Origin: an uncultured Alcanivorax sp.
GTDB lineage: Bacteria > Pseudomonadota > Gammaproteobacteria > Pseudomonadales > Alcanivoracaceae
Reading direction: 5' to 3'
Length of the DNA: 58,253 nucleotides
Assembly: GCA_913055795.1 (NCBI GenBank)
Contig: CAJXLA010000005.1
Span: forward strand, 1-58,253
The notes below the pieces were generated by a model, which was not told the origin of the DNA, made no database searches, and worked only from the letters and a program-made list of their open reading frames with translations. Below are positions 5,290 through 49,814 of this stretch, piece by piece (position 1 is the first letter of the stretch; the number at the start of each line of letters is the position of its first letter). The position numbers and the translations under genes were made by a program.

Positions 5290-6474
5290 ATGACGATCCT
5301 GAATGGTTTATTCGCGCCCTCCTGGGTGGAACTGGTATTGATTACGCTGGGCATGACGCATGTGACCATTGTCGCGGTCACGGTCTATCTTCACCGTTAT
5401 TCCGCGCACCGCTCGCTGGAGCTGCACCCGGCGGTGCGGCATTTCTTCCGTTTCTGGCTCTGGCTGACGACGGGCATGAACACCCGGGCCTGGACCGCCA
5501 TTCACCGCAAACACCATGCCCGCTGCGAAACCGAGAACGACCCCCACAGCCCCCAGATCCTGGGCATCGGCAAGGTGCTGGGCGAAGGCGCGGAGTTGTA
5601 CAAGACGGAAGCGGGCAATGAACAGACGCTGGCACAGTACGGTGCCGGCTGCCCGGACGACTGGCTTGAACGCAATCTTTACAGCCGCTTCCAGAGCCGG
5701 GGCATTGTATTGATGCTCGCGATTGATTTGCTCTGTTTCGGTGTCATCGGGCTCACTGTCTGGGCGGTGCAAATGCTCTGGATCCCCGTTTTTGCCGCCG
5801 GGGTGATCAATGGTGTGGGCCACTACTGGGGCTACCGCAATTTCGAATGCGCCGACGCCTCGCGCAACATCGGCCCGCTGGGGCTGCTTATCGGCGGCGA
5901 GGAGCTGCACAACAACCACCATACCTATCCCACCTCCGCCAAACTGTCGGTTCGCGCCTTCGAATTCGACGTGGGCTGGTTCTGGATTCGGACCCTGGAG
6001 ACGCTGCGGCTGGCGAAAGCCAAACGTACGCCGCCGGTGCCACAGTATGAGCAGCAGAAGTCCACCATCGATCTGGACACCCTGCGCGCGCTGGCGCACA
6101 ACCGCTTCCAGGTCATGGCCCGCTACCGGCGGGAGGTCATCCGGCCCGTGTTGCGCGAGGAAAAGGCCCGGGCCTCGGCGGCCGCGCGGGGCGCGATCCG
6201 GCGGGCGAAATCGGTGTTCTGGCGCAACGAACGCCTGCTCGGCGAACGGGAACAACGCCGGCTGGAGCGCGCCCGGGCCTACAGCGAACGCCTGGAAGCC
6301 ATCTATCAGTACCGGCTGCGCCTGCAGCAGATCTGGTCGCGCACCAGTCAGAGCTCCACGGAAACGCTGGACGCCCTGCGCCAGTGGTGCCGGGATGCCG
6401 AGCAGAGCGGTATCGACGCGCTGGAGGATTTCGCCCGGCAACTGCGCGCCTATACCACGCGCGCGTCGGACTAG
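5290..6474 (+). CDS. Acyl-CoA/acyl-lipid delta-9-type fatty acid desaturase
   Basis: A 394-aa membrane di-iron desaturase. The three His boxes are HRYSAH (35-40), HRKHH (72-76) and HNNHH (about 207-211). Hydrophobic segments lie at about 10-33, 52-66 and 140-175. The C-terminal 120 residues are highly charged and helical (many Arg/Glu) and probably cytoplasmic. That tail and the length resemble the Pseudomonas DesA/DesB class that introduces double bonds into saturated acyl chains. It probably adjusts membrane fluidity or supplies unsaturated chains for storage lipid. Its TAG stop lies in the first bases of the repeat that starts at 6471. Confidence 0.9.
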   Translation: MTILNGLFAPSWVELVLITLGMTHVTIVAVTVYLHRYSAHRSLELHPAVRHFFRFWLWLTTGMNTRAWTAIHRKHHARCETENDPHSPQILGIGKVLGEGAELYKTEAGNEQTLAQYGAGCPDDWLERNLYSRFQSRGIVLMLAIDLLCFGVIGLTVWAVQMLWIPVFAAGVINGVGHYWGYRNFECADASRNIGPLGLLIGGEELHNNHHTYPTSAKLSVRAFEFDVGWFWIRTLETLRLAKAKRTPPVPQYEQQKSTIDLDTLRALAHNRFQVMARYRREVIRPVLREEKARASAAARGAIRRAKSVFWRNERLLGEREQRRLERARAYSERLEAIYQYRLRLQQIWSRTSQSSTETLDALRQWCRDAEQSGIDALEDFARQLRAYTTRASD

Positions 6475-6700
6475 CAGACGAGTAGAGCCCCTTGCGCGCG
6501 CCGGCTTTCAGGCTGGTGCGCAATCGAGGCGCCGTTTTGAAGGCGGGCTCGGTCTCGCCTTCAAAACGGCACCCGTGAGTGCGGGCCAGCCTGAAAGCCC
6601 CCGCGCGCGGCCTGAAGTGCCCATCTGCTGCACCTTGTCGCTGGGAAAGGCAAGCACCCTGCCCGTCGCAACCAGCCACACCTGCTGCACGCTTCAGGCC
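6471..6700. repeat. Dispersed structured repeat, copy 1 (degenerate left end, no clear right end)
   Basis: This stretch aligns along its length with 36168-36433. Both contain GCTTTCA.GCTGGT.CGCAATCGAGGCG, then GTTTTGAAGGCGGG or its variant, a GCGGGCCAGCC arm, TGCCCATCTGCTGCAC, and CTGCACGCTTCAGGCC. Nested stems are visible: a perfect 15-bp stem (6531-6545 with 6556-6570) inside a 14-bp stem (6503-6516 with 6586-6599). The left end (CTAGCAG) overlaps the stop codon of the desaturase gene; the right terminal repeat seen in copy 2 is not recognisable here. It carries no credible gene. It fills most of the 400-bp gap before rpmB. Origin and function are unknown. Confidence 0.8.
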
Positions 6701-6772
6701 GGTTTCGGGCTCACCCGTGCCTGGAAATCCGTGGCTCGCTCAGGCTCATGTGTCGTTGGACAATGCTGCATC

Positions 6773-36024: not shown

Positions 36025-36167
36025 GCACTTCCTGAACCCCCGGTTGGCGGGCTCCGCGCCTCCCAAGGGGACCATGTTACGGGCTCGCCTGCGGCCTCGC
36101 CCGTCATACTGTCCCGCGCCGAGGTAAAGCAGCTGTAGGGTGCGCCGTGCGCACCATCCCTCTGACC
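36025..36167. other. Intergenic region with short inverted repeats after cysC
   Basis: No gene is seen. Several short hairpins are visible. The clearest is GGTGCGC CGT GCGCACC (about 36139-36155), flanked by TAGGG and ATCCC. I recall similar GTAGGGTGCGC palindromes as intergenic repeats in other proteobacteria, but cannot check that here. ACGGGC and GCCCGT also pair upstream of it. Confidence 0.45.
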
Positions 36168-36433
36168 AGCAGGCTGTTGAAAAACCCTGTGCACGCTCAG
36201 GCTTTCAAGCTGGTTCGCAATCGAGGCGCTCTTTTGAAGGCGGGTGTCCACCCGTCGAAAAAGGGCAACGATGACTGCGGGCCAGCCGGAAAGCCCCGCA
36301 GGGCGTGGCCTGACGTGCCCATCTGCTGCACTTGGTTGCTCGGAAAGGGAACCACCCTGTCGGTCGCAACAAAGTACACCAGCTGCACGCTTCAGGCCAC
36401 GCTGAGCACGCACAGGGTTTTCAACAGCCTGCT
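36168..36433. repeat. Inverted-repeat element (MITE-like), copy 2, 266 bp
   Basis: The ends are near-perfect inverted repeats of about 32 bp. The left reads AGCAGGCTGTTGAAAAACCC then TGTGCACGCTCAG. The right, complemented, reads AGCAGGCTGTTGAAAACCCT then GTGCGTGCTCAG. They differ by one missing A and two substitutions. The interior aligns with 6471-6700 and folds into nested stems. There is no transposase or credible gene inside. Size, terminal repeats and location between genes fit a miniature inverted-repeat element. CTAG follows the right end, and CTAG also begins copy 1. Confidence 0.82.
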
Positions 36434-36444
36434 AGATGCGGCAA

Positions 36445-47981: not shown

Positions 47982-48179
47982 GGAATCTCTGGGCGGGTCA
48001 TGTCGGGGGTTTGCCAGGTCCATTTTTGTCTGTCTCAAGGCGCGCCGACGCCGCCGTACTCCCTCGGGTAGGAGGCGCAACGCCGAGCCAGACGAAAATG
48101 GGCATGGCCCGAAGGGTTGGTCTCAAAATCGTTGATTTTGAGACCAACAAACCCCCGACATGATCCGTTCAGAGATTCC
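47982..48179. repeat. 198-bp nested inverted-repeat element at the ygjP 5' end
   Basis: The 32-bp ends pair with 29 matches: left GGAATCTCTGGGCGGGTCAT then GTCGGGGGTTTG, right its complement with three changes. Inside, 48020-48036 pairs with 48086-48102 (15/17), and TTGGTCTCAAAATC (48117-48130) forms a perfect 14-bp hairpin with 48134-48147 around GTT. No gene lies inside. It sits three bases from the stop codon of the upstream acyl-CoA ligase and runs into the 5' end of the ygjP-like gene. It is unrelated in sequence to the 36168 element. Confidence 0.85.
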
Positions 48180-48182
48180 CCT

Positions 48183-49814
48183 TCACTCCGCATAGAGATT
48201 GCGCATATTCTTCTTGTCCAGCTTGCCCACACTGGTGCGGGGCAGGCTGTCCACGAAACGGACCTGATCGGGCACACCGTACTTGCTGATGAAGCCCTTG
48301 TCGGCGTCGTCCCTGAGCATGTCCTTGATGGCGTCTTCGGTGACTTCGCCGGATTGCACCACCAGGGCCATGGGGCGCTCGCCCCATTTGTCGTCCGGCA
48401 CCCCGATGACCGCGCATTCGGCCACGGCCTCGTGGCGCAGGATCATGCTTTCCAGTTCGAGCGACGACACCCATTCGCCGCCGGTCTTGATCACGTCCTT
48501 GATGCGGTCGGTAATGCGCAGATAGCCCTCCGGGTCGATCACGCCGATATCACCGGTGTGCAGCCAGCCGCCCTGCCAGAGCCGTTCGGAATTCTCCGGA
48601 TCCTTGAGGTAGCCCTGGGTCAGCCAGGGCCCGCGCGCAACCACTTCCCCCTGGCTTTGACCATCGTGGGGCCGATCATTCATGTCCTCGTCCACCACAC
48701 GGACCTGCATTAGCGGCACGGGACGGCCGGTGCGGGTACGGTAATCGACCTGGGTATCCAGGTCCGCGTTTTCCGCTTCCGGGGGCATAAAGGACAGCGT
48801 CATCAGCGGGCAGGTCTCGCTCATGCCGTAACCGGTGTAGATGTCGATACCGCGTTCCAGGGCCTGCCGGCACAGCGGTTGGGCCAGCGCGGAGCCGCCG
48901 ATAATGACCTTCCAGCCGGAGACATCCACGTTCTTCGCCGCCTCGCTTTGCAGCAGCATCTGGATAATGGTGGGCACGCAGTGCGAGAAGGTGACCTTTT
49001 CGCCCACGAGCAGCTGGAGCAGGGTCTGGGGTTCGTAACGGCCCGGGTAGACCTGCTTTACGCCCATCATGGTCGCCATATAGGGCACGCCCCAGGCATG
49101 CACATGGAACATGGGCGTGATGGGCATGTAGACATCGTCCTGATTGAAACGGCCGTGGCCGCTGCCGGACATGGCATTACGCCCGGACAGGGTATGCAGT
49201 ACCAGTTGCCGGTGACTGAAATAGACCCCTTTGGGCAGGCCCGTGGTGCCCGTGGTGTAAAAGGTGGTGGCGCGTGTATCTTCGGTCAGCTCCGGAAATT
49301 GAAAGCCGGGATCCGCCTTGTCCAGCAGGGCTTCGTATTCGCCCGCCATGTCCAGGCCGGTATCTTCCGGGCCTTCGCCGTCATCAAGCAGCACGAATCG
49401 GTCCACGGTCTCGATACGGTCGCTGAATTCCTCCACGACCGACAGGAATTCCCGGTTCACCAGGATGGCCTTGTCCTCGGCATGATTGATGGTATAGAGC
49501 ATCTGTTCCGGGGACAGGCGCACGTTAATGGTATGCAGGACCGCGCCCATCATGGGAATGGCGAAAAAGGCTTCCAGATAGCGGTGGGTGTCCCAGTCCA
49601 TCATGGCCACCGTGTCACCGGGCTGAATACCCAGATCACTGAGTGCGCTCGCCAGCCGGTGAATGCGCTCGCGCAGATCCCGGTAGGTCATGCGGCGCTT
49701 GTCCGCATAGACGATTTCCTGGTCGGGCGCGGTACGCACGCCGGCGTCGAGGATGTCGCCGATGGTCAGCGCCGGATCCACCGCGGATTCGGTGCGCTCG
49801 ATCTCGATACCCAT
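48183..49814 (-). CDS. Medium-chain fatty acyl-CoA ligase (AlkK/DmdB-like)
   Basis: An AMP-forming enzyme that activates fatty acids to acyl-CoA. The 543-aa protein has the ATP loop FYTTGTTGLPKGVYFSH, the YGMSETCPLM acyl-binding motif, WLHTGDIGVIDPEGYLRITDR and the catalytic Lys end SVGKLDKKNMRNLY. It resembles AlkK-type medium-chain ligases and also methylmercaptopropionate-CoA ligases, which cannot be told apart by eye. It suits a pathway from alkanols and fatty acids to beta-oxidation. fumC lies upstream on the same strand with a 116-bp gap. Confidence 0.93.
   Translation of the reverse strand: MGIEIERTESAVDPALTIGDILDAGVRTAPDQEIVYADKRRMTYRDLRERIHRLASALSDLGIQPGDTVAMMDWDTHRYLEAFFAIPMMGAVLHTINVRLSPEQMLYTINHAEDKAILVNREFLSVVEEFSDRIETVDRFVLLDDGEGPEDTGLDMAGEYEALLDKADPGFQFPELTEDTRATTFYTTGTTGLPKGVYFSHRQLVLHTLSGRNAMSGSGHGRFNQDDVYMPITPMFHVHAWGVPYMATMMGVKQVYPGRYEPQTLLQLLVGEKVTFSHCVPTIIQMLLQSEAAKNVDVSGWKVIIGGSALAQPLCRQALERGIDIYTGYGMSETCPLMTLSFMPPEAENADLDTQVDYRTRTGRPVPLMQVRVVDEDMNDRPHDGQSQGEVVARGPWLTQGYLKDPENSERLWQGGWLHTGDIGVIDPEGYLRITDRIKDVIKTGGEWVSSLELESMILRHEAVAECAVIGVPDDKWGERPMALVVQSGEVTEDAIKDMLRDDADKGFISKYGVPDQVRFVDSLPRTSVGKLDKKNMRNLYAE

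Follow-up and report, generated by a model that had tools for sequence, protein, structure and literature searches.

A mobile, dyad-symmetric MITE-like element of about 265 nucleotides in Alcanivorax and its probable relatives across the Proteobacteria

The 58,253-nucleotide stretch of an uncultured Alcanivorax genome analysed here (the window in what follows) carries a 264-bp element at positions 36169-36432, which we interpret, with a probability of roughly 0.6, as a MITE-type, non-autonomous transposable element and as a member of a Proteobacteria-wide family of structured, dyad-symmetric elements of about 265 nucleotides. The element is mobile, since relatives carry empty sites at 14 of the 34 insertion sites that we compared.

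The ends of the window element (36169 and 36432) were set by a boundary table of 44 copies and by the covariance model R2, which scored 219.6 bits on the minus strand and 93.8 bits on the plus strand; the minus strand, the reverse of the orientation chosen in the first-pass annotation of this DNA, serves as the R strand in the models. From the outside inwards, the element consists of an outer inverted repeat of about 31 bp, two imperfect hairpins of about 95 nucleotides each, and a mini-hairpin between them. Inverted-repeat and copy comparison placed the left arm of the outer repeat, which starts with GCAGGCTGTTGAAAAACCC, at 36169-36200 (plus strand) and the right arm at 36402-36432 (minus strand). 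Hairpin A (R-strand hairpin 2; 36200-36295) was delimited by covariation and fold, and hairpin B (R-strand hairpin 1; 36303-36402) by covariation and by its inverted arms at 36303-36339 and 36366-36402. The mini-hairpin CCC-N-GGG (36294-36303) retains its outer C-G pair in 37 of 37 divergent copies (consensus). The motifs CAAGGCG..GCAACGC are conserved in the two large hairpins on opposite strands. A TA dinucleotide flanks the right end (36433-36434), while its left counterpart (36167-36168) has decayed to CA. In its size (264 bp, below 500 bp), its non-coding nature and its terminal inverted repeats of 31-33 bp, the element fits the general description of a MITE.

The first-pass annotation had described near-perfect inverted repeats at 36168-36433 that enclose a structured interior with nested hairpins and no transposase, and this description holds. 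The arms (33 and 32 nucleotides) are 91% identical with a one-base gap, and the two mechanically called open reading frames that cross the element have no match to a Pfam or NCBIfam family. Folded as single-stranded DNA, the 266-bp segment reaches -90.7 kcal/mol, compared with -50.5 ± 3.7 kcal/mol for 200 shuffled versions (z = -10.8), none of which folded as well. Compensatory change across copies, described below, bears out the hairpins.

Two further copies lie in the window, both on the minus strand. The copy at 6471-6702 (R2, 94.8 bits at 6501-6702) is 80% identical to positions 18-231 of the window element. It had been called decayed, which is true of its largely eroded outer repeat but not of the upper stem of hairpin A, where the arms are now perfect complements over 15 bp. 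Its left TA together with its first base forms the TAG stop codon (6472-6474) of a DesA-family fatty acid desaturase gene (5290-6474); the encoded protein ends in an alpha-bundle resembling that of ISL3 transposases (Pfam PF01610, NCBIfam NF049919). The other copy, absent from the first-pass annotation, is found at 47982-48179 (R2, 100.9 bits) immediately downstream of a gene for an acyl-CoA ligase (48183-49814, minus strand); one of its hairpins is shortened and its outer repeat, unlike that of the window element, reads GGAATCTCTG..CAGAGATTCC. The proposal that the element is a dispersed repeat is thus borne out by three copies in the window and at least 40 scored copies in the host genome, and the refuting case of only two copies does not apply.

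The host assembly is a metagenome-assembled genome (MAG) of 2.78 Mb in 169 contigs with a completeness of 86.7%. From 178 candidates at first look, all 40 that were scored (40/40) matched, a count that is a lower bound because many contigs end inside a copy. The end motif GGCTGTTGAAAAA (at most one mismatch) occurs at 93 + 89 places in this genome, compared with 1 + 2 for the reversed control. One and the same genome has several subfamilies with different ends and a common core: a GTGTCC-ended subfamily adjoins or touches CAGGCTG-ended copies at three loci of the host (L002, L024 and L033), and R2 scores 190.6 bits at L033:1234-1497. Shortened forms that have lost one or both hairpins are common. 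Conversely, five copies (L127, L131, L137, L119 and L136) carry extra hairpin sequence within hairpin A and attain lengths of about 290-316 nucleotides. At L140:7129-7358, a copy of the core is enclosed by yet another, third type of outer repeat (GGGCACCTCC-type), in an Alcanivorax strain whose other copies are GGGAGCC- or CAGGCTG-ended.

A search of relatives, as had been proposed, gave BLAST matches in 34 of 94 genomes, the host genome included. Covariance models reached further: across the class, R1 detected relatives of the element in 37 of 369 genomes, which represent 31 of 272 genera, and across the phylum, R2 did so in 104 of 398 genomes, from 57 of 213 genera. The R2 figures count genomes with a match among at most five scored candidates per genome and rest on rough E-values. 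Most full matches measure 261-271 nucleotides. Named hosts are Alcanivorax, Alloalcanivorax, Gilvimarinus and Reinekea (the Reinekea copy being partly masked), and full-length R2 matches occur in plasmid records of Pseudoalteromonas shioyasakiensis, Azotobacter chroococcum, Halomonas sp. PA16-9 and Pseudomonas aeruginosa PA83. The 266-bp window segment itself had no match among plasmid and phage records, nor did the copy L222 among phage records; four exact-match pattern scans of viral contigs and a first pattern scan of genome contigs likewise returned none.

What these copies share is the fold. In 42 full copies from the Alcanivoracaceae and Gilvimarinus, 97.3% of the cells at paired positions can pair, compared with 36-48% for slid partners, and 44 of 81 pairs show two-sided change; none of 500 shuffles came out as high. 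In an alignment of 37 copies across the class (A4), the corresponding values are 93.3% compared with 34-43%, with two-sided change in 88 of 96 pairs. The first-pass annotation had described the interior stems as partly kept despite sequence drift. All these comparisons are to be read in the knowledge that related rows can exceed shuffles and that a structure inferred from the very rows on which it is tested is likely to outperform its slid versions; alignments A1 and A2 were built without four copies having hairpin-tip insertions, and A4 without L161 and L175. In the outer helix of A4 taken alone, every one of the 31 pairs shows two-sided change and 93.7% of cells pair. Its sequence is less constant than that of the core: among 27 divergent rows, identity amounts to 36% in the outer-stem columns and to 53% in the core columns, and the outer repeats differ wholly between lineages, and between subfamilies within one genome, yet remain complementary. 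Hence, the first-pass reading as a MITE-like element stands for its terminal inverted repeats and non-coding nature but is incomplete, the ends not being a conserved recognition sequence.

In the near set, the reverse strand folds better than the forward strand (consensus of -128.5 or -134.7 compared with -93.1 kcal/mol; lower energy in 34 of 42 rows). We had considered, and reject, an RNA-only reading of this difference; the preference vanishes in the divergent copies, in which the R strand is lower in 15 of 27. Among the shared pairs, G.U-compatible combinations prevail in hairpin 1 (42 GU compared with 16 AC) and the converse holds in hairpin 2 (17 GU compared with 31 AC). Likewise, AGGC at positions 51-68 and AAC[GA] at positions 97-118, counted from both ends on opposite strands, occupy all four sites in 37 of 51 copies, compared with a mean of 0.0 in shuffles. 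This motif test, which checked whether R2 merely detects long palindromes, left out L149 (near a contig start), L217 and the short-flank loci L209, L211, L213, L228 and L235. Since motif sites and G.U pairs are mirrored on opposite strands, the element is nearly symmetric under reverse complementation, and this near-symmetry speaks for recognition of two equivalent ends in the DNA rather than for a single RNA.

Direct evidence for movement came from the empty sites that the first-pass annotation had proposed to look for in close strains. We searched 17 Alcanivorax genomes with the joined, element-less flanks of 14 Alcanivorax copies, and 18 genomes with those of another 20 sites, of which 14 belong to the host genome. 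Flanks were contiguous in at least one relative at 14 of 34 sites (11 of 14 in the first set, 3 of 20 in the second), with flank identities of up to 97%; among these is one host-genome site (L014), the other 13 of the 14 host sites tested, including that of the window copy, having no usable empty site in relatives. The compared loci therefore do not carry the element as a fixed part. At L131, the empty site has a lone TA and the element is bordered by TA both left and right, and at L014 a single TA in the empty site corresponds to a TA on either side in the filled site, plus one extra base. The L130 element breaks a reading frame: where it lies, four relatives have the uninterrupted sequence CCC ATG AAG GGC. 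The net length difference was +2 at four sites (L131, L123, L135 and, relative to two of its relatives, L116), 0 at L128 and L041, +1 at L122, L130 and L144, +3 at L139 and L014, and larger (up to +5) or negative at L040, L045 and L121; it thus lay between 0 and +3 at 11 of the 14 sites. A short, commonly 2-bp, target duplication at TA is the commonest reading of these non-uniform changes, although they do not prove it.

TA borders 50 of 85 sides in 44 copies and both sides in 17 of the 44; among 51 divergent copies, 28 have a TA within one nucleotide of both ends. By eye, the base before the left TA is mostly C or T and that after the right TA mostly A or G. At 13 of 50 TA-flanked sides, TA and the first base of the element form the stop codon of an open reading frame of at least 100 codons, compared with a background of 3.0% of all TAs (282/9536) or of 9.1% of intergenic and stop-codon TAs, the latter figure depending on crude ORF calls. 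The divergent set gave 4 of 25 sides, compared with 2.0% and, with the same crude calls, 4.3%. The first base of the element is A or G, so that an insertion at the TA of a TAA or TAG codon restores the stop, which would help to explain why insertions at gene ends are tolerated; survival bias may account for part of the excess. No rule emerged for flanking gene ends and orientations, for which the counts used the same ORF calls.

Two copies hint at how the arms of the element stay matched. Those of hairpin A are exact complements over 15 and 16 bp in the window copy at 6471 and in a Gilvimarinus copy (L143), compared with 4-8 bp in six other copies, and the remade arm is the right one in one of the two copies and the left one in the other. 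The pattern resembles quasi-palindrome correction, a recognised type of mutation, by which one arm would have been copied from the other. Such correction can yield covariation without selection on an RNA, and by implication the conserved mismatched motifs elsewhere may be kept against it.

Under our preferred reading of a MITE-kind element, a transposase or similar enzyme supplied in trans would pair the two symmetric ends, cut at the outer repeat, insert at TA, often within YTAR, and duplicate the TA. The CAAGGCG..GCAACGC inner motifs, with their mirror counterparts on the opposite strand of the second half, would be the likely constant sites of binding or folding, and the outer repeats would be free to change while their arms stay complementary, quasi-palindrome correction, seen in two copies, being one way of keeping them so. 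Whether such an enzyme would read shape or sequence, and the chemistry beyond insertion at TA, are matters of inference, and a phylum-wide conserved fold with changing ends is unusual for a MITE moved by a DDE enzyme. We consider it less likely than not that the copies form a phylum-wide superfamily whose constant, recognised part is the dyad-symmetric pair of folded hairpins, with outer repeats exchangeable as long as they pair and with an enzyme linked to no known insertion sequence.

The freely varying, pairing ends would also be expected if a folded single strand were moved by an HUH enzyme such as RAYT (REP-associated tyrosine transposase) that recognises structure and not end sequence. 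The G.T-compatible pairs on opposite strands in the two halves, as if each half folded on a strand of its own, speak for such single-strand transposition, as do Y1_Tnp (PF01797) proteins in 8 of 10 genomes searched and the absence of a duplication at L128. Against it, Y1_Tnp was found neither in the host MAG (G000; 86.7% complete) nor in G001 (89% complete), and none of 29 Y1_Tnp loci of about 2-3 kb has a BLAST match to the element. IS200/IS605 chemistry, moreover, does not fit a TA at both ends or the duplication of TA seen at some sites, and we consider this route unlikely.

Quite unlikely, in our estimation, is an ordinary MITE that arose by internal deletion from one IS630- or IS5-like insertion sequence, its fold being a by-product of the inverted repeats. 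The TA flanks are in keeping with such an origin, and TTGAAAAA-type ends with a TA target presumably resemble IS630- or IS5-like elements. In a sister-genus genome (G015), moreover, elements of about 152 bp (L046-L064) with several hairpins, CAGGCTGTTGAAAAA-type ends (T1) and TA flanks have their outer 14-16 bp and TA in common with the present family, while their core is unrelated and has no R2 match; this suggests that ends may be common to, or acquired from, other elements that depend on one and the same enzyme, and it likewise accords with our preferred reading. However, the IS630-type domain PF13358 was found in 0 of 7 genomes and the IS4/IS5-type domains PF13586 and PF13340 in 0 of 2 and 1 of 15, respectively, with no matching ends in the PF13340 case. 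The IS630-type, both IS4/IS5-type and the Y1/RAYT enzymes went undetected in the host MAG (86.7% complete). The transposase loci that we did find carry no copy of the element and neither end type as a pair, with two single weak end matches, and around lone T1 ends in G015 and the host genome we recognised no transposon, judging by ORF layout. The idea of a transposase acting from elsewhere agrees with the mobility and the TA flanks, but neither an enzyme nor an autonomous transposon sharing the ends turned up in the families searched (PF13358, PF13586, PF13340 and Y1_Tnp). A dyad core, with its interior, hairpins and mini-hairpin conserved at near-constant length across a phylum, is in addition not what one would expect if a single insertion sequence had simply undergone internal deletion, since a chance deletion joint would not be so conserved.

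A structured RNA or 3' mRNA element of use to the host (a terminator, stabiliser or sRNA) and dispersed by chance would accord with the strong compensatory change, the stable mini-loops (TTCG or GAA), the stop codons abutted by some copies and the better R-strand fold of close copies, but is very improbable given that orientation to the upstream gene follows no rule (22 same, 32 opposite, both sets), that the near set has no excess of 3' ends (31 3' compared with 35 5'), that both strands fold about equally in divergent copies, that sister species have no copies at closely similar loci, that L130 breaks a reading frame and that Rfam offers no match.

The Rfam search gave no gathering match at the window element, and in E-value mode four loci (L116, L117, L124 and L133) and 20 divergent loci had only sub-threshold miRNA, sRNA and viral-type matches nearby; elsewhere in the window, Rfam located a cspA thermoregulator (RF01766; 44662-45035, plus strand, 95.7 bits). 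The accessible portions of the literature (PMC5896051, PMC4853749, PMC10969869, PMC3733652, PMC2267715), with few subscription papers and without ISfinder, describe no family of such size and host range, and searches with sequence strings led to unrelated papers only. If our preferred MITE-kind reading is right, a sizeable share of proteobacterial genomes would carry one old, uncatalogued class of mobile element with a constant fold and changing ends, which would raise the question of which enzyme reads shape instead of end sequence. The family would also provide a marker for intergenic annotation and natural cases of arm-to-arm correction in palindromes.

Among known systems, ERIC, Correia/NEMIS (CREE) and RUP elements all target TA, and no transposase is known for ERIC. 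ERIC is, in the portion of the source available, a short non-coding imperfect palindrome dispersed over Enterobacteriaceae and Vibrionaceae (PMC10969869); it measures 127 bp, unlike the approximately 265 bp found here, R2 did not match an E. coli ERIC locus (L206) at E-values of up to 1, and judged by this model our element is not an ERIC member. CREE and RUP are likewise MITEs with stable hairpins but come from other taxa, and their descriptions, as far as excerpted, mention no constant two-hairpin core (PMC3733652, PMC10969869), so that they are set apart by description and not by sequence. The same kind of distinction applies to QMITE1 and QMITE2 of Coxiella, gammaproteobacterial MITEs with stable folds that also make sRNAs: according to the text available, they have direct repeats of 2-3 or 7-11 nucleotides of variable sequence, and the authors report no orthologues of QMITE1 elsewhere (PMC5896051), so that direct repeats and host range differ. 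REPINs and BIMEs with their RAYTs resemble the present element as dispersed, mostly intergenic, dyad-symmetric hairpin units, but REP units are given in the accessible text as 20-40 bp with a GTAG or CGTC tag (PMC3733652), whereas here the unit has about 265 nucleotides and YTA..TAR flanks, and the host genome, an incomplete MAG, yielded no Y1_Tnp. On the best reading, the element works as ERIC, CREE or RUP do, is moved in trans and constitutes a MITE variant that is new, structured and spread across the phylum.
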